Of a stretch of 64,000 nt of DNA, positions 14,589 to 25,383 are shown piece after piece. The notes under the pieces are model-generated. The model was not told the origin of the DNA, made no database searches, and worked only from the letters and a program-made list of their open reading frames with translations. Positions within the stretch are counted from its first letter, which is position 1, and every line of letters begins with the position of its first letter. The position numbers and the translations under genes were made by a program. Origin of the DNA: Acidobacteriota bacterium (GTDB lineage: Bacteria > Acidobacteriota > Blastocatellia > Pyrinomonadales > Pyrinomonadaceae); the NCBI GenBank assembly GCA_020199775.1, contig JAIVJZ010000004.1, positions 186,001 to 250,000 of the forward strand. Direction: 5' to 3'.

Positions 14589-14771
14589 CTATGGTAAATG
14601 CGTAAGTTAAGCGGAAGATGGCATTAAAATCGCTGTTTGAGGGAAGTTTGTAGCAACGTTTCCATGCTCCGAGTCCTCAAACCTTGCGCCATCCGGTTCA
14701 ATCTTTTGCAGGCTAATATTCCCCTTTGTCGTTCGTGCGAAAAGAGTTTTCAAGCCATTCTCCATACTGAA

Positions 14772-16844
14772 ATGAAAAGAAATAACCATTCCGCCAGCAA
14801 AAGTTTTATCGCCCTTTTCGTCCTCGCGTCGCTGTGCCTCGGCAACTTCGGCGGGCTGACGGCGCGCGGGCAATTTTTGCCGGGCGGAAAGGGCGCTCAG
14901 TCGGCCGGGAAATCCGGTTCTCTGGCGACCAAAAACAAAGTCGCGGCCACGCCCCCGGCGAAATACGGCGCGCGACTCGATAAACTCTCGCCCGATCTGG
15001 CGCAACAGTTAATCCGTTCGGTTAATCGCAAGAAAATCTTTCGCGTCATCTGCCGCTTGAACGCCCCGGCCGGGAGCGGCGTCGAGGCCATCTATACGCG
15101 GCCGCGCGTGCGCGTCAATTACGCTTTCCAGAATTCCAGCATCGTGAGCGCGGAGATGCCCGCGACCGACGTGTTTGAGTTGACGAGGTTCGCGGAAATT
15201 TCCTACATCACGCCCGACCGAGAGGTGCGCACGCTCGGCCACGTCTCCGCGACGACCGGCGCAGACCTCGTGCGCGCACAGGCGACCGGCGGGCTCGACG
15301 GGACGGGCATCGGCATCGCCGTGCTCGATTCGGGCATCAAGCGCAGCCACAAATCTTTCCGCGACGGGCGCACCGACGACAGCGACGTGCGCATTGTGGC
15401 CGAAGGGGATTTCGTCGACTACGGCAACGCCTCCGACCAGTACGGGCACGGCACGCACGTCGCCTCGCTCGCGGGCGGCAACGGCCGCATCGCCAACGCC
15501 GCTTACGTCGGCATCGCGCCGAACGCGAACATCGTCAACCTGCGCGTGTTGGACAACGAGGGGCGCGGCTCGGTCTCGTCCGTGTTGCGCGCGCTCGACT
15601 GGGTGATGACGAATCGCGCGCTCTACAACATCCGTGTCGTCAACCTGAGCCTCGGCATGCCCGCCGTCGATTCATACCGGAACGACCCGGTCTGTCTCGC
15701 GGTGCGTCGTCTGGTTGACGCAGGAATAGTGGTGGTCGCCGCGGCGGGCAACAACGGCAAGACCGACGACGGGCAAAAAGTTTACGGTCAGATTCACTCG
15801 CCCGGCATCGAGCCTTCGGCGATCACCGTCGGGGCGACGAACACCTTCGGCACGAACGAGCGCGGCGACGACGCGGTCGCCTCTTACAGTTCGCGCGGCC
15901 CGACGCGCGGCAGCTACATCGACGCGGCGAACGTCCGTCATTTCGACAATCTGCTGAAGCCCGAACTCGTCGCGCCCGGCAACAAGTTGGTCGGCGCGCA
16001 GGCCGAAGGGGAATGCCCTGAAGACGTGGACGATTGCGGCGCGAAGAATTTCCTGCTCACGCGTAACCCGCAGATGGAGGCGGGCGTGAGCACGGACGAC
16101 AGCCGCGCGATGATGTTCATGAGCGGCACTTCGATGGCTGCCCCGCAGGTGGCCGGAGCGGCCGCGCTGCTCCTGCAAGTCAACCCGCATCTCACGCCGA
16201 ACATGATCAAAACGATCCTGATGTACACGGCGCAGCCGCTCAAAGGCTTCAACATGTTCGAGCAGGGCGCGGGCGGGCTTAACATCGAGGGCGCGGTCAG
16301 GCTCGCCAAACTCGTCCGCCGCGACATCACGAGCGGCACGCCGCTCGGCACGCCCCTGCTCACCGGCGCGCCCCCCACGCCGCGCACCACCATCGCCGGG
16401 CATGCGTTCGACTGGGCGCAAGGCGTCGTCCTCAACTACACCTTCGCCACCGGGCTCGACCTCATCACCGATTACCAACGCATCTACGACCTCGGCGTGA
16501 TCATGAGCGACGGCGTCATCATGAGTGACGGCGTGATCATGAGCGACACCGTCCTCATGCGGAATCCCGCCTTCCTCAGCGACGGCGTGATCATGAGCGA
16601 CCACATCCTGACGAGCGACGGCCGGATGCTCGGCAGCGGCACGCGCTACGTCGCGGTCGGCGTGATCATGAGCGACGGCGTGATCATCAGCGACGGGGTG
16701 CTGCGCGACGACGGCGTGATCATGAGCGACGGCGTGATCATGAGCGACGTGCTGCTGAAGTCTCTGGCGACGATGGCCGACGGAGACCGCACGAGTTATG
16801 CGCCCGTGGTGGTCGATACCGGCGAGGACTATCGAGGCTATTGA
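14772..16844 (+). CDS. Secreted S8 subtilisin-like protease with C-terminal GVIMSD repeats
   Basis: The start at ATG 14772 (MKRNNHSASK) gives 690 residues with a signal peptide; the ORF-track start lies upstream. Residues about 70-160 look like an inhibitor-type propeptide. The catalytic domain has Asp186 (VLDSGIKRS), His226 (YGHGTHVAS) and Ser454 (SGTSMAAPQ), plus the Asn of AAAGNNG. Residues about 575-661 are a repeat array in which GVIMSD occurs seven times plus one GVIISD, ending before a short acidic tail. All catalytic residues are present, so it should be active outside the cytoplasm. The repeat region resembles no standard sorting domain I know and may form a beta-structured adhesion or anchoring element. 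A sigma-54-like site lies upstream. Confidence 0.9.
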   Translation: MKRNNHSASKSFIALFVLASLCLGNFGGLTARGQFLPGGKGAQSAGKSGSLATKNKVAATPPAKYGARLDKLSPDLAQQLIRSVNRKKIFRVICRLNAPAGSGVEAIYTRPRVRVNYAFQNSSIVSAEMPATDVFELTRFAEISYITPDREVRTLGHVSATTGADLVRAQATGGLDGTGIGIAVLDSGIKRSHKSFRDGRTDDSDVRIVAEGDFVDYGNASDQYGHGTHVASLAGGNGRIANAAYVGIAPNANIVNLRVLDNEGRGSVSSVLRALDWVMTNRALYNIRVVNLSLGMPAVDSYRNDPVCLAVRRLVDAGIVVVAAAGNNGKTDDGQKVYGQIHSPGIEPSAITVGATNTFGTNERGDDAVASYSSRGPTRGSYIDAANVRHFDNLLKPELVAPGNKLVGAQAEGECPEDVDDCGAKNFLLTRNPQMEAGVSTDDSRAMMFMSGTSMAAPQVAGAAALLLQVNPHLTPNMIKTILMYTAQPLKGFNMFEQGAGGLNIEGAVRLAKLVRRDITSGTPLGTPLLTGAPPTPRTTIAGHAFDWAQGVVLNYTFATGLDLITDYQRIYDLGVIMSDGVIMSDGVIMSDTVLMRNPAFLSDGVIMSDHILTSDGRMLGSGTRYVAVGVIMSDGVIISDGVLRDDGVIMSDGVIMSDVLLKSLATMADGDRTSYAPVVVDTGEDYRGY
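16494..16752 (+). repeat. Tandem 18-bp units encoding GVIMSD
   Basis: The unit GGCGTGATCATGAGCGAC recurs exactly or with one or two changes in three clusters (16494-16548, 16584-16602, 16659-16752). The clusters are separated by diverged units (TVLMRNPAFLSD, GVLRDD). Confidence 0.85.
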
Positions 16845-16919: not shown

Positions 16920-17825
16920 ATGTCTCGAACGCCCGACTCCGCCCGCACAACGTCGCCTCGCCCGCACGCCTCGCCGGAAGGCGAACTTTCGTCGCCGCAA
17001 CTTCTCGCGCGCGGTCAGGAGGACGAAACTCTGAACTTTCTCGGCGCGAGTCCGGTGCAAAACGTCATCATGTCGAGCCTGATCCGCGACAACGGGTTTG
17101 AGCGAAAATTGAATCGGGGCGATTTTTACGTGTGCCGCGACGCGCGGGGCGAGACCACGGGCGTCGCTTTGATCGGGCATCACATCATCTTCGCGAGTCA
17201 ATGCGCCGAGGCTGTCGAGGCGTTTGCGCGCCGGGCGCGCGAGCAGCGCGACGCGCACGTCATTCTCGGCGAGCGCGAATCGGTCAAGCAATTCTGGTCT
17301 GGTTACGCGCGTGCGGGCGAGTCGCCGTTGCTGGTGCAGCGTGAATTACTGCTGGAACAGACGTGGCCGGTCGCGGTGCGCGAGTCCGTGCCGGAGTTGA
17401 GACCCGCGACGCTCGACGACTTGTCGCAGGTCGCCGCCGTACACGCGCGGTTGGCGTTTGAAGAGAGTTCGAGCAACCCGCTGGAGGTTGACCCGGAAGG
17501 TTTTCTCACGCGGTTGGCGCGCCGCATCGAGGCGGGGCGCATCTGGGTGTGGATCAAAGACGGACGTCTGATCTTCAAGACAGACATTTGTTCCGCGACG
17601 CCGGAAGTGATCTACCTCGAAGGCTTATACGTGAATCCCGAAGAGCGGGGCAAGGGCTACGGGGTGCGCTGCCTGTCGCAATTGAGCCGCGAGTTGTTGT
17701 TGCGCGCGCGGTCGCTTTGTTTGCTCGTCAACGAGCAGAACGAACCGGCGCAGGCCCTCTACCGCCGTGCGGGTTACAAACTGCACAGCCACTACGACAC
17801 CATCTATCTCCCGCCCAAGATTTGA
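16920..17825 (+). CDS. DUF4081 plus GNAT N-acetyltransferase
   Basis: This 301-residue protein carries an N-terminal DUF4081-like region (residues about 25-150, with LNFLGASPVQNVIMSSLI) and a GNAT domain (about 160-300). The acetyl-CoA pyrophosphate loop is in VNPEERGKGYG, and the C-terminal strand carries NEPAQALYRRAGY. This domain order occurs in a defined group of acetyltransferases whose substrate is not known. It follows the subtilase gene by 75 bases on the same strand and may be co-transcribed. It is not the small GNAT (MdnD type) of microviridin clusters, being larger and separated from the precursor by the TPR gene. Confidence 0.85.
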   Translation: MSRTPDSARTTSPRPHASPEGELSSPQLLARGQEDETLNFLGASPVQNVIMSSLIRDNGFERKLNRGDFYVCRDARGETTGVALIGHHIIFASQCAEAVEAFARRAREQRDAHVILGERESVKQFWSGYARAGESPLLVQRELLLEQTWPVAVRESVPELRPATLDDLSQVAAVHARLAFEESSSNPLEVDPEGFLTRLARRIEAGRIWVWIKDGRLIFKTDICSATPEVIYLEGLYVNPEERGKGYGVRCLSQLSRELLLRARSLCLLVNEQNEPAQALYRRAGYKLHSHYDTIYLPPKI

Positions 17826-18032
17826 AGCGCACCAGTCTTGTCTCTCCCGCGTCGGAACTTGTAATTTGTGATTTAGCAACGCAGCCACTATATTTAACTC
17901 CACAATCGGTCGGCATCCCTGAAGGGCTTTTCTTGCCTCTGTGTGGAAGAGAAGTGCGATGCCGGTCGCCGCGATGATTCGCGCGCGAATGGTATTTCGA
18001 GACGCGAAAATTCCTGTGGAGGCCGCCGGATA

Positions 18033-20863
18033 ATGAGCAAGGAGAATCAAGGGGGAGAGTCCGGCATCGCAAGTTTGAGCGAGGCGCGCGTGCGCGCGCA
18101 GGCCGCGCGCGGGTCGCTGGAACGCGAACTGGAAGACGTGCGCCTGCTGCTCGATCAGGGTCTCACTTCAGAGGTCTTGAAGCGGACGGCCTCGCTCATG
18201 CGCGCCTCGCGACAGGACGCGACGCTGCTCGGGCGCGCTCGCTGTTTGCTCTCGGCCGCGCTGGAGATGCAGGGGCGTTATCGCGAGTCGCTCGAAGCGG
18301 TGCGGCTGTACGAGCAGCCGGAGGAGCGCGCCAAGTGCGACCCCGTCTCTTCGATTTATCTCGGCGTCCAACTCGGTCTGGCCTACAACTACACGGGCGA
18401 TCACCCGAAGGCCATCGCGCTCCTGAACGCGACGCTGCGCGAAGCGACGGAGCACGGCGGCGGCGCGCAGGTCGGCTCGGTCTACGTCGCGCTCGCGCGC
18501 GTCTACCGCAACATCAACGAGTACACCATCGCGCGCGACCACGCGCAAAAGGCGCTCGAACATTTTCGCGGCACGGGCGACTGGCGCGGGCTGGCCGAAG
18601 CCAATTTCGGCATCGCGCTGGCGGAAGTTTACGAAGGCAACTACGAACCCGCGCTCGAACATTTCGGGCAGGCGTTGAAACTCGTCGGGGATCATCCCGC
18701 GCCTTACCTGCTCGGCAAAATCTACACGAACATGGCCGGGGTCTGCTGGTTTCTCAAGCGGCCGCACGACGGCATCAAATATTTAGAGACGGCGATCAGC
18801 TACTACGAGCGCACCGAGCACAAGGCCAACGCCGCCGACGGCTACAACAATCTCGGCATCCACCTCATCCTCGTCGGCGAATGGGATCGCGCGCAGGAAG
18901 CCCTAGAACGCGCCCTCACGCTCGCCTCCGAGACAGACAAGCGCGGCGAGCAGACGATGATCCTCGATTCGCTCGGCGAGTTGTTGATGCTGCGCGGCGA
19001 ACTGGAAGAGGCGGAGAAATATCTCGAACGCGCCGTCGAACTATCGCAGGAGCACGGCAACAAGTGGTACATCGGGCAAGCCCTGCGCACGCTCGGACGC
19101 TGCCACCTCGCGATGGGCCAGTTGGAACGCGCGCTCGCCGACGGGACGCGCGCGCTCGAATATGCCGGGCTTATCGGGGATCGTCAGGCCGTCTGCGACT
19201 CGCGCCTGTTGCTCGGAGAGATTTACCTGCGGCGCGGCGACCTCGTCCGGTGCGAAGAACAACTCAATCCGGTGTTGAGCGAGACGGCCGACACGTCCGC
19301 CGACTTCGCCGTGTCGGGCGAGGCGCAGCGTCTCCACGGCCTGCTCTCGCTCGCGCGGGGCGAACGCTTGCTCGCCGCGCAACACTTCGGGCGCAGCGTC
19401 TCCATCTACGAAATGCTCGGCGACCGCTACCGCAGCGCGCGCTCGCGCTACGACCTCGGACGCGCCTACGCCGCCGTGCAGCCCGAACGCGCCTATGAAT
19501 GTCTCGCGCGCGCCACGGAGACTTTTCGCGAACTCGGCGCACGGCTCGACATCACGCGCGCCGAAGAAGCCCTGAGCGCGCTCGCTCAACATTCCGTCGG
19601 CGACGACGCGCCCGCCGCGCTCCAACCGCGCTTCGACGACCTGACGCATTTAATCTTGCTGCGACTGACGGACGCCGTCGCCTCGCGCGAACTGCTCCTG
19701 CGCGAACTGGCCGCCGTCGTTAGTCAGGAGACGGGTGTGCGCCGGATTTTGATCGCCGAGACGGACGAAGAGGCGCGCGGCCGGGTCGTGGTGGCGCACG
19801 GCTGGACGGAGGACGAAGGCGGGGGACTGTTGGAGAAGTTGCATCGCGCGGAGGGCGCGGAAGAGACGAAGCGCGTCGCGGGCGAACATCAGGTCGAGAC
19901 CATCGAACTGCGCCCGACGAACGCGCCGCCCGCCACCTTGCTCGTGTCGCCGCCGGGGACGGCCGCGCTGCCGGGCGGCGTTTCGCTCGATCCGCTGCTA
20001 CGGATGGTCGAACTGGGTCTGGACGTTTGCGCGTTTCGCGAGCAGGCGCGCGAAGGTCTCGACGGCGCGGAGCAATCCACTCTCGCCAGCCAGAGTTTTA
20101 TGCCGGGCTTCATCCATTCGTCACCGGCCATGACGCGTCTGGTCGAAGAAGTACATAAAATACGTTCCTCCGACGTGACCGTGCTGGTCACGGGCGAGTC
20201 GGGGACGGGCAAGGAACTGGTCGCCCGCGCCATCCACGCGCTCTCGTCGCGCCGCGCCAAAGTCTTCGTCCCCTTCAACACGTGCGCATCATCGCCGCCA
20301 CCAACAGCGACCTCGAAGACATGGTGAAAGATGGCCGCTTCCGCGAGGATTTGTATTATCGTCTCAACGTCATTCGCCTGCGCGTGCCTCCGCTCAGGGA
20401 GCGTCGTTCGGAAATCCCGACGCTCGTCAATCACTACATCGGCCACTACGCGCAGAAGTTCAACCGCCGCGAAATCCGTATCACGCCGGAGACGATTGAC
20501 CTGCTGATGGTCTGCGACTGGCCGGGCAACATCCGTCAACTCGTCAACGAAATTCAACGCATCATGGCGCGCGCCGAAGACGGCACGTTGATCACGCCCG
20601 ATCATCTCTCGCCCGAACTCAAACGCACCTCCGCGCCCGTCTCCACGACGACCACGCACTTTGCCGCCTTCGGCGCGGCCGCGCAGCACGCGCCGGAAAC
20701 GCTCTCGCTGCCCGACGCCGTGGAAGACCTCGAACGCCGCATGATCGCCGACTCACTGCGCCGCCACAAAGGCAACATCTCACGCGCCGCACGCGAACTA
20801 GGCATCACGCGTCGCGGACTCCAACTAAAACTCGGACGCTACGCCATGAGCGCGACTTCCTGA
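18033..20863 (+). pseudogene. TPR-type sigma-54 activator, interrupted by an internal deletion
   Basis: From ATG 18033 (GGAGG upstream) the protein has about 520 residues of TPR repeats (AEANFGIALAEVYEGNYEPALEHF), a GAF-like segment (about 570-680) and the start of an AAA+ sigma-54-interaction domain with Walker A GESGTGKE. After FVPFNTCA the frame collapses and stops at 20327. The missing C-terminal part resumes in another frame at 20282: VRIIAATNSDLEDMV, FREDLYYRLNVI, WPGNIRQL and a Fis-type helix-turn-helix (GNISRAARELGITRRGLQ). About 80 residues expected between these points, including the GAFTGA loop and Walker B, are absent. Without them the protein could neither hydrolyse ATP normally nor contact sigma-54. 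Either the gene is dead, or the assembly collapsed a stretch bounded by ACGTGCGC. Confidence 0.82.
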
Positions 20864-20975: not shown

Positions 20976-21170
20976 ATGAAACAGCAAGATAAAGCCAACG
21001 CCGAAACCACCCGCAACGATAAGCCGGAAGGCAATGAAACCCCATTCTTCGCGCGTTTCCTAGAAGGACAACTCGACGAATCCAACTCGCGCGCGGCCAA
21101 CGACGAAGCCGTTTTCGCAACTCTGAAATACCCCTCCGACCGCGACGAAGATCCCCTGTATCACATCTAA
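20976..21170 (+). CDS. Microviridin-type graspetide precursor peptide
   Basis: This 64-residue peptide has both family hallmarks. The leader helix motif PFFARFLEGQ (residues 23-32) is the recognition element for the ATP-grasp ligases. The core contains TLKYPSD (49-55) followed by RDEDPLYHI. In microviridins, Thr and Ser are joined to acidic side chains as esters and Lys to an acidic side chain as an amide, giving a tricyclic serine-protease inhibitor. By position, T49-D55 ester, S54-D57 ester and K51-E58 amide are expected. Departures from the usual TxKYPSDWEE are Arg at the Trp position and Asp for the first Glu. A strong AAGGAG lies eight bases before the ATG. Two ligase genes follow on the same strand. 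Confidence 0.93.
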   Translation: MKQQDKANAETTRNDKPEGNETPFFARFLEGQLDESNSRAANDEAVFATLKYPSDRDEDPLYHI

Positions 21171-21378: not shown

Positions 21379-22359
21379 ATGGCGACCAAGCCGGAGCGGG
21401 ACACCGTCCTGCTGCTCACGCACAGCGGCGACTACTACACGGTGGATCGCGTCGCCGAAGCCCTCGCGCGTCGCGGCGCGAAAACTTTCCGCTTCGACAC
21501 GGATCGCTTCCCGCGCGAAGTGCGCCTCGCCGCGCGTCTCTCCGGCGCGGGCAATTACACCATCGAAGACGGCGCGGCGACGTGCGACGCGCGGGCGGTG
21601 CGCGCCGTCTGGGCGCGTAAGATTTGGCCGCCCGTGTTGGACGAACATCTCGACCCGAAGTTTCGGCAGATGTGCCTGCGCGAGAGCGTCGCCGCCCTCC
21701 ACGGATTCTTCGACGGGCTGCACGCGGCGCGCTGGGTCAACGACCGCGCGCGTGAAGACGAAGCCGGGAACAAACTCCGGCAACTGCGCCTCGCCGCCGA
21801 AGCGGGCTTGGCGATACCGCGCACGCTCCTGACGAACGACGCGGAACAGGCGCGGGAGTTCTTTCGCGAAAACGACGGCGCGCTCGTGGCGAAATTGCTC
21901 ACGGCCGTCTCCGTCAGCATGGGCGCGGATTCGGACTTCGTCTATACGAACAAAGTCGGCGCGGGCGACCTCGAAGACGCGGCCGGGCTGCGCCACAGCC
22001 CGATGGTGTTTCAGGAGCACATCCCGAAATCGCTCGAACTGCGCGTCGCCTACGTCGCCGGGAAATTCTTCGTCGGCGCGCTGGACGCGAGCCGCACCGT
22101 CGGCGGACAAATTGATTGGCGACGCGCCGCGCCCGGCGAATGCCGCTGGCAGCGAGACGAGATTCCGGCGGAACTCGCCGCGCAACTCACGACCCTGATG
22201 CGCCGCCTGCAACTCGTCTACGGCGCGATAGACATTATCCGCACGCCCGCAGGCCGACACGTCTTTCTCGAAGTCAACCCCGGCGGCGAATGGGGCATGC
22301 TCGAACGCGATCTAGACTTCCCCATCTCGGAAGCCATCGCCGACGCTCTCCTCGTCTGA
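21379..22359 (+). CDS. MdnB/MvdC-like ATP-grasp ligase (graspetide maturation)
   Basis: This 326-residue ATP-grasp enzyme opens with VLLLTHSGDYYTVDRVAEAL, has the central AGNKLRQLRLAAEAGL and ends with the metal-binding FLEVNPGGEWGMLE. These are the features I associate with MdnB/MvdC, which in cyanobacterial microviridin pathways forms the Lys-to-acid amide after the esters are made. MdnC/MvdD assignment cannot be fully excluded by eye. No clear Shine-Dalgarno precedes ATG 21379. The gene is 208 bases after the precursor and five bases before the second ligase, implying coupled translation of the pair. Confidence 0.9.
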   Translation: MATKPERDTVLLLTHSGDYYTVDRVAEALARRGAKTFRFDTDRFPREVRLAARLSGAGNYTIEDGAATCDARAVRAVWARKIWPPVLDEHLDPKFRQMCLRESVAALHGFFDGLHAARWVNDRAREDEAGNKLRQLRLAAEAGLAIPRTLLTNDAEQAREFFRENDGALVAKLLTAVSVSMGADSDFVYTNKVGAGDLEDAAGLRHSPMVFQEHIPKSLELRVAYVAGKFFVGALDASRTVGGQIDWRRAAPGECRWQRDEIPAELAAQLTTLMRRLQLVYGAIDIIRTPAGRHVFLEVNPGGEWGMLERDLDFPISEAIADALLV

Positions 22360-22364
22360 AATTT

Positions 22365-23354
22365 ATGACCGTCCTCATCATCACCCACAGCGACGACAAC
22401 GAGAGCGTCGCGCTCGTCGCCGATTCCATCAGGAAACGCGGCGGCAACTCGTTTCGCTTCGACACCGACAAATTCCCGACCGAGGTTCAACTCGTCGCAC
22501 ACTACGGCGAAACTCACGAGAGATTTTCGCTCGCCGACGGCGGCGAGACGCTCGACCTGCGCGACGTGTCGGCCGTCTGGCATCGCCGCCTGAACGTCGC
22601 GGGGCGGCTGCCCGGCGAGATGGACGCCCAACTCCGCCGCGCCGCGCTCGGCGAATCGCGCGCGACCATCATGGGGATGCTCGCGAGTCTGAGGGTGTTT
22701 CGGATGGACGCCGAGCAGTCGATTCGTCGCGCCGAAAATAAGCAGTTGCAAATTCAGATGGCGCGCGAGTCGGGACTGGACACGCCGCGCACGCTCATCA
22801 CCAACGACCCCGAAGCCGTGCGCGCCTTCGCACGCACCTGCGAGCGTGGCATGATCACGAAGATGCTCTCATCCTTTGCGATCTACGAAGACGGCGCGGA
22901 AAAAGTAGTCTTCACCAACCCGGTTGCGGCCGAAGATTTGAACGATCTCGACGGGCTGCGTCTCTGCCCGATGGCTTTCCAGGAACAGGTGTCGAAGCAT
23001 TTGGAACTGCGCGTCACCATCGTCGGCCGTCGCGTGTTGGCCGCCGCCATTGACTCGCAGGCGTCCGCGCGCGCCGCGCACGATTGGAGGCGCGACGGCG
23101 TGCGGTTGATCGACGCGTGGCAACCCTACACGCTGCCGCCCGCGGTGGAAGAAAAACTGTTGAGCTTGATGGATTACTTCGAGTTGAACTACGGCGCGGC
23201 CGATCTTATCGTGACGCCCGAAGGCCGACACGTCTTTCTCGAAGTCAACCCCTCCGGCGAATTCTTCTGGCTCGAAAGGCATCCGGGGCTGCCCATCTCG
23301 GAAGCCATCGCCGACGTGCTGCTCGGCCTCTCGGAGCGTAGGGGTAAGGGGTAA
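22365..23354 (+). CDS. MdnC/MvdD-like ATP-grasp ligase (graspetide maturation)
   Basis: The true start is ATG 22365 (MTVLIITHSDDNESVALV); the ORF-track extension to 22116 lies within the preceding ligase gene. The 329 residues include FRFDTDKFPTEV, VSAVWHRRLNV, ENKQLQIQMARESGL, VFTNPVAAEDL and FLEVNPSGEFFWLE, a pattern like MdnC/MvdD. That enzyme makes the two side-chain esters first, after binding the PFFARFLE leader helix. The last residues (ERRGKG) are encoded by the GGGTAAA heptad repeat that follows. The gene forms a two-ligase pair with the MdnB-like gene. Confidence 0.9.
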   Translation: MTVLIITHSDDNESVALVADSIRKRGGNSFRFDTDKFPTEVQLVAHYGETHERFSLADGGETLDLRDVSAVWHRRLNVAGRLPGEMDAQLRRAALGESRATIMGMLASLRVFRMDAEQSIRRAENKQLQIQMARESGLDTPRTLITNDPEAVRAFARTCERGMITKMLSSFAIYEDGAEKVVFTNPVAAEDLNDLDGLRLCPMAFQEQVSKHLELRVTIVGRRVLAAAIDSQASARAAHDWRRDGVRLIDAWQPYTLPPAVEEKLLSLMDYFELNYGAADLIVTPEGRHVFLEVNPSGEFFWLERHPGLPISEAIADVLLGLSERRGKG

Positions 23355-24135: not shown

Positions 24136-25383
24136 TTAAACTTCGGGCGTCGGCTTCTTGGTGCGCGGCGTGGCGGATTTCGACGCGCTCTTGCGCGGGG
24201 CGGCGGATTTCGGCGTTCTGGCTGAAGCCGCGCGCGGAGTTTTGGCCGTGGCGTCGGGCGACGCTTCCGTCTCGCCGCTCCGGCCGAGAATGCCGGAGAC
24301 GGCGTTGGCCGCGCCCTCGACGAGGTCTGAGACGCCTGCCGCGATGTCGGCCGCAATCTCGCGTCCCGACTCAGGAATGATCGCGGAGACGGACTGCTGC
24401 GCGGCGGACGCGACCGCCGACATCGCCTGCGTCGCCGTCTCGATGGGGCGCGGGTTGAGCATCGCGTCCCAGCGATAACGAACTTCGGTCTGCGGCTCGG
24501 CGAGGCGTTTGAAGACGAGGTTGACGACCGTGTCGGTCACCCAGTTGTGATAGAACTCGCCGACCGATGCGAGTTCGGCGTCGGGCGCGGGGTTCATGAA
24601 ATCAATCGCGTAGGGGATGCCATCCTTGATGGCAAACTCGACGGTGTTGATGTCGTAGCCGAGCGCGCGGCAGAGCGTGCGCACGTCGTTCGTGATGCGC
24701 TCGGCCAGTGCGGCCGAGAGATAATTCGGGTCTTGGATGTACTGCTCGCCGGACAGGTACGGCTTGCGCGGGTCGTAGGGCATGATCATCACTTCTTCCT
24801 GCCCGATGCAGTAGCAGCGCACGAACTGGTCGAAGGCGACGAATTCCTGAAGCGTCATGCAGAGCGTGCCCGTCGTGTCGTAAATCTGCCACAGTTCCTC
24901 AATCGAGTTGACGCGCGAGACGTTCTTCCAGCCGCCGCCGTCGAAGGGCTTGATGATGGCGGGCATGCCGACGTAGCCCACGATGCCCTGCCAGTCGAGC
25001 GGGAATTCGAGGTTGCGCAAAGACTCGCTCGTGATGCCTTCGATGTAGTCTTTCTGCGGCAGCAGGGCGGTCTTCGGGATGGCGACGCCGAGTTTGACGG
25101 CCAACGAGTAGTTGAAGAATTTATCGTCCGCCGACCACCAGAAGGGGTTGTTGATGATCTGCGTGCCTTCGAGCGCGGCGCGCTTGAGGAAGGCGCGGTA
25201 GAAGGGCACTTCGTGCGAGATGCGGTCGATAATGATGTCGTAGCGGCGTCCCTCGTCGAGCCGGACGCCGCCGACTTCGACGTACTCGGCGACCACTTCG
25301 CCCGCGCCGCGCTCGTTAATCCGGTCAATCAATGCCTGCGGAAAAGTCTTCTCGCGGCCGACTAAAATACCAACAGTCTTCAC
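24136..25383 (-). CDS. ATP-grasp protein (RimK/glutathione-synthetase-like) with basic Ala/Lys/Pro tail
   Basis: The start is a GTG at 25383 with AAAGGAT upstream. Residues about 1-310 form an ATP-grasp fold: MPAIIKPFDGGGWKNV (ATP lysine and Gly loop), LQEFVAFDQFVRCY, VEFAIKDGIPYAIDFMNPAPD (metal site). The last 45 residues are Ala/Lys/Pro/Ser-rich (TPRAASARTPKSAAPRKSAS), like a histone-H1-type tail, which would bind DNA, RNA or another polyanion. It is the third ATP-grasp gene within 4 kb, but it is on the opposite strand and not of the MdnB/C type. The substrate is unknown. Its promoter is divergent from that of the exported gene to the right. Confidence 0.8.
   Translation of the reverse strand: MKTVGILVGREKTFPQALIDRINERGAGEVVAEYVEVGGVRLDEGRRYDIIIDRISHEVPFYRAFLKRAALEGTQIINNPFWWSADDKFFNYSLAVKLGVAIPKTALLPQKDYIEGITSESLRNLEFPLDWQGIVGYVGMPAIIKPFDGGGWKNVSRVNSIEELWQIYDTTGTLCMTLQEFVAFDQFVRCYCIGQEEVMIMPYDPRKPYLSGEQYIQDPNYLSAALAERITNDVRTLCRALGYDINTVEFAIKDGIPYAIDFMNPAPDAELASVGEFYHNWVTDTVVNLVFKRLAEPQTEVRYRWDAMLNPRPIETATQAMSAVASAAQQSVSAIIPESGREIAADIAAGVSDLVEGAANAVSGILGRSGETEASPDATAKTPRAASARTPKSAAPRKSASKSATPRTKKPTPEV

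Follow-up and report, generated by a model that had tools for sequence, protein, structure and literature searches.

Does the microviridin-type precursor of this acidobacterial locus break the rule of its family, and, if one of its acids has been exchanged, which residues would close its rings? The question arose from an initial annotation of the window, that is, the whole stretch of 64,000 nucleotides analysed, in which the core peptide was read as a departure from the motif TxKYPSDWEE.

The precursor and its ligase pair

The open reading frame at 20976-21170 (+) codes for a protein of 64 amino acids, MKQQDKANAETTRNDKPEGNETPFFARFLEGQLDESNSRAANDEAVFATLKYPSDRDEDPLYHI, whose C-terminus reads T49-L-K-Y-P-S-D-R-D-E-D-P-L-Y-H-I64. 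Position 21117 belongs to the codon of A48 and the T49 codon occupies 21120-21122; the translation confirms the core sequence and numbering first given for it (T49, K51, S54, D55, R56, D57, E58 and D59). The protein matches Pfam family PF12559 (Inhibitor_I10; E-value 5.1e-9, 36.6 bits versus a cut-off of 21) and NCBIfam family NF033738 (microvirid_RiPP; E-value 2.1e-11, 44.4 bits versus 26). Since both matches exceed their cut-offs and two ATP-grasp ligases lie directly downstream, the family assignment is not a matter of chance. The leader contains at residues 23-32 (21042-21071, +) the helix motif PFFARFLEGQ, which corresponds to the PFFARFL-like leader of the microviridin-type (group 1) graspetides and to which a role in ligase docking is attributed (PMC7823629, PMC13039773). 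It is followed by one core, TLKYPSDRDE (T49-E58, 21120-21149, +), with no GG motif ahead of it, an arrangement that fits class I as defined in PMC13039773, and by a tail, D59-P-L-Y-H-I64 (21150-21167, +), that is predicted to be unlinked and differs in sequence and length among congeners.

An MvdC/MdnB-type ATP-grasp ligase, predicted to form the lactam, is encoded at 21379-22359 (+; TIGR04185, 436.8 bits versus 425; best PDB matches 5IG8 and 7M4S), and an MvdD/MdnC-type ligase, predicted to form the lactones, at 22365-23354 (+; TIGR04184, 484.3 bits versus 475; best PDB match 5IG9), both thresholds being equivalog cut-offs. As in group 1, the pair adjoins the precursor downstream on the same strand, and both enzymes align end to end with the solved MdnB, MdnC, AMdnB and CdnC. 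Residues K165 and D280 of the ATP/Mg site of AMdnC are needed for catalysis (PMC5934393), and their equivalents, the Lys of TKMLSS and the Asp of ADLIVTP, are kept in all 21 MvdD sequences aligned. The position of the published leader-contact residue N195 of MdnC is taken by Asp in the window's MvdD and in the other acidobacterial MvdD aligned, which counts against the standard reading. In the MvdD tree a branch supported at 100/99 sets the cyanobacterial sequences apart from the acidobacterial ones, whose internal order is poorly resolved, and in the MvdC tree the acidobacterial sequences group together (support 95/100). Among named genomes, a Pyrinomonadaceae MAG comes nearest, with an MvdD identity of 84%. 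Neither a C39 peptidase nor an ABC transporter was found among the 20 neighbouring open reading frames scanned (9235-38695), and no second precursor was found in the own genome with the NF033738 profile. Judged by its sequence, the locus is a genuine, intact and conserved class I microviridin-type cluster.

Other ligase homologues were observed in and outside the window. Close to the cluster, on the opposite strand, 24136-25383 (-) encodes an ATP-grasp-like protein (RimK/LysX-like, weak; 89% in a congener) with no Pfam match and an Ala/Lys-rich C-terminal tail. A third graspetide-type ligase homologue of the own genome lies away from the window (L075, G000 contig 43, 22778-23743), and no microviridin-type precursor match accompanies it. 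In another acidobacterial genome, G004, locus L038 (contig 24) combines the precursor TLKYPSDRDEIDQ with an MvdC-type ligase and no MvdD-type one within the 19 kb fetched; another cluster of that genome, L039, has both types.

The acid pair in Acidobacteriota and cyanobacteria

Precursors were collected in the own genome and its relatives, by scanning genome contigs, and in a cyanobacterial sample, and their cores were extracted with the pattern [TS]xKxP[ST]D and tabulated. The resulting 87 cores (20 from Acidobacteriota and 67 complete cyanobacterial ones) are related by descent, hence not independent draws, and comprise only cores that follow the pattern. TxKYPSDWEE does not stand as a family rule, since the published consensus, TX1KYPSDX2(D/E)(E/D), is looser, with any residue at X2 (PMC5934393), and within the set a literal WEE occurs in 3/87 cores and Trp at X2 in 17/87. 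TLKYPSDRDE satisfies that consensus, also in the form TX1K(Y)PSDX2(D/E)(E/D).

The initial annotation had called for an alignment with other precursors of the phylum. Once run, it placed Asp at the position of D57 in all 20 acidobacterial cores, versus 21 of the 67 cyanobacterial cores. The acid pair is DE in 17 and DD in three of the former, never EE or ED; among the latter it is ED in 39, DD in 12, DE in nine, EE in six and HE in one. TLKYPSDRDE itself accounts for seven of the 20 acidobacterial cores, across five genomes: the own genome, the two other genomes sampled from its genus (L003 and L004/L013), L005 (twice), and L009 and L011 (one each, both clusters of G004). The same core is, then, common in other clusters of the phylum, which the annotation had named as grounds for giving up its reading. 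Arg does stand where Trp was expected, and Asp where the first Glu was, but neither exchange is unusual, given Trp in only a minority of all cores and Asp in every acidobacterial one. The core is thus the norm of its lineage, not an exception, and the gene is largely ordinary, because the flagged residues are usual in the lineage and already work in a cyanobacterial relative.

Two observations concern the residues around the acid pair. All 17 cores of the set with Trp at X2 have Glu next, whereas non-Trp cores carrying either acid have Asp in 41/69 and Glu in 28/69, a difference that gives a Fisher value of 3e-6 with phylogeny ignored. Inspection of the conserved motifs by eye showed no MvdD residue that co-varies with Asp versus Glu, and we make no claim on such co-variation because clade and acid type are confounded.

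Microviridin-type clusters are rare in the phylum, a precursor match being found in two of 396 genomes drawn across it, but in each of the three genomes sampled from the genus. Judged by titles and abstracts, no paper in the open-access literature searched is evidently devoted to acidobacterial microviridins, which does not prove that none exists, and the literature looked through yielded no mass spectrometry on any of them.

Ring pattern and its alternatives

By atom count, the lactone ring of S54 is 14-membered with Asp and 15-membered with Glu. A precedent for the smaller ring is AMdnA of Anabaena PCC 7120, where the first lactones of the three cores use D51, D76 and D93, and the second ones E53, E78 and D95 (PMC5934393). 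Judged by residue numbering, D95 would occupy the position of D57 (SD-x-D spacing, two residues after D93). Mutation D95A abolishes just the second lactone of core M3, and D93A blocks both (PMC5934393). Because the effect of D95A is confined to that lactone, an Asp replacing the first Glu serves the Ser lactone there, with the canonical register kept; M3 is processed by AMdnC, an enzyme different from the window's MvdD type. On this precedent and the alignment of the 87 cores, the pairing of S54 with D57 and of K51 with E58, put forward in the initial annotation, is the likeliest prediction. The most likely product would be a class I tricyclic microviridin with esters T49-D55 and S54-D57, amide K51-E58 and Leu as P1, and we are highly confident that this Pyrinomonadaceae cluster is a standard two-ligase one with these three predicted rings and with D59 and the tail left free. 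All bonds of the window's peptide, as well as its activity, we infer by homology.

In the proposed model, the PFFARFL helix of the leader would recruit and activate the MvdD-type ligase, which would phosphorylate D55 and then D57. The T49-D55 ester would close first and the S54-D57 ester second, and the MvdC-type ligase would afterwards close the K51-E58 amide. A protease encoded elsewhere would cut off the leader, releasing a caged inhibitor of serine proteases, its P1 residue being Leu50 and D59 and the PLYHI tail remaining free.

Two other patterns have to be weighed. There is a slight chance that the cage is incomplete, with the T49-D55 ester and the K51-E58 amide closed and both S54 and D57 open. 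Bicyclic microviridins C and D lack the Ser ester (PMC7823629) and the major product of AMdnA core M1 gained just one lactone (PMC5934393); however, core M3, with its Asp, gained both (PMC5934393), and S54 together with an acid at the D57 position is kept in nearly all cores. Even less probable would be the register shifted by one that had been offered as an alternative to the S54-D57 pairing, with an S54-E58 ester, a K51-D59 amide and D57 free. A third acid, D59, does follow the pair and is kept in all three congeneric genomes, but its equivalent is Asp in only five of the 20 acidobacterial cores, other PSDRDE cores go on with Ile or Tyr, and AMdnA D95A shows that an Asp at the canonical position is in use. 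Moreover, MvdD is inert once the hydroxyl residue is displaced one place either way (PMC7823629, a review). It is the lack of a D59 equivalent in most related cores, together with this strictness of MvdD, that disfavours the shift. That the genus does use the third acid, for a lactam on D59 or a second lactone on E58 in a register unseen in characterised microviridins, is just as improbable.

The canonical three-ring pattern agrees with a core, TLKYPSDRDE, that is protein-identical across the three genomes sampled from the genus. Compared with the window, the eleven codons T49-D59 of the congeners carry one or two synonymous changes and none that is nonsynonymous, and the 48 leader codons about 21 nonsynonymous ones. 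Invariance of T49-D59 amid a diverged leader points to constraint over drift, although eleven codons are few. A decayed or non-functional cluster, its odd residues being products of drift, is scarcely credible. In its favour, the upstream regulator is broken in the assembly by a 229-bp deletion relative to a congener, but the precursor and both ligases are intact and above curated cut-offs, and the core protein is unchanged despite diverged DNA and leader.

Target, surroundings and known relatives

From Leu at P1, targets of the elastase, chymotrypsin or subtilisin type had been suggested, a guess that is reasonable and quite ordinary. Microviridins B and 1777, which have TLK with a P1-like Leu, inhibit elastase and chymotrypsin; F5L improves elastase inhibition by microviridin L, and Leu variants of microviridin J inhibit subtilisin as well (PMC7823629). 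As for leader removal, LEGQ in the leader resembles the LEEQ/LAEQ of class I precursors, the motif at which the M1-family protease NosP is proposed to cut (PMC13039773). Four Peptidase_M1 matches occur in the own genome, none of them in the window, and the leader protease may be encoded at a distance from the cluster.

Just upstream of the precursor lies a regulator gene with TPR and sigma-54-interaction domains (17943-20863), which, compared with the intact congener gene (L034, 16036-19152), is missing 229 bp inside the AAA+ domain and is split into two frames; the loss is either a real lesion or an assembly error. Further upstream, in the same orientation, a subtilase-family Peptidase_S8 gene (14637-16844; 85% in a congener, whose copy shows GVIISD-type repeats) encodes an enzyme that is in principle a conceivable target for a Leu-P1 inhibitor from a neighbouring gene. 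A GNAT acetyltransferase gene (16920-17825; 77% in a congener) precedes the precursor by about 3 kb. It was considered as a cluster member and rejected, since the entire flank is syntenic in the congener and conservation of the gene is no evidence of a link with the cluster.

Through this locus, a little-studied soil lineage gains microviridin-type clusters in which both ligases are intact. An apparent exception turns out to be a lineage norm, with Asp at the small-lactone position in all sampled acidobacterial cores, and the ligases of these bacteria form a natural set used to Asp that is possibly useful for protease inhibitor engineering. The understanding of the microviridin family is unchanged by the cluster.

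Among known systems, AMdnA/AMdnC of Anabaena sp. PCC 7120 (PMC5934393) shares with the window the PFFAR-type leader, TxKYPSD cores and an MdnC-type ligase, and its core M3 has Asp (D95), not Glu, serving the Ser lactone, as is predicted for the window's peptide. It differs in being cyanobacterial and of class II, with three cores per precursor versus one. The class I microviridins B, J, K and 1777 have the same single C-terminal TxKYPSD core, the same lack of a GG motif and the MvdC and MvdD pair, and B and 1777 also Leu at P1; however, they continue with Trp-Glu-Glu after PSD where the window has Arg-Asp-Glu followed by a longer tail, and in the window neither an acetyltransferase nor an ABC transporter gene directly adjoins the ligases. 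Eight acidobacterial loci of the same taxonomic class (L003, L005, L006, L007, L008, L009, L011 and L013) resemble it in their PSDxDE or PSDxDD cores, their PFFAR(F/Y)LE leaders and, where the contig allows, their MvdC and MvdD types, whereas loci of that class outside the genus mostly have two to four cores per precursor and the window has one.
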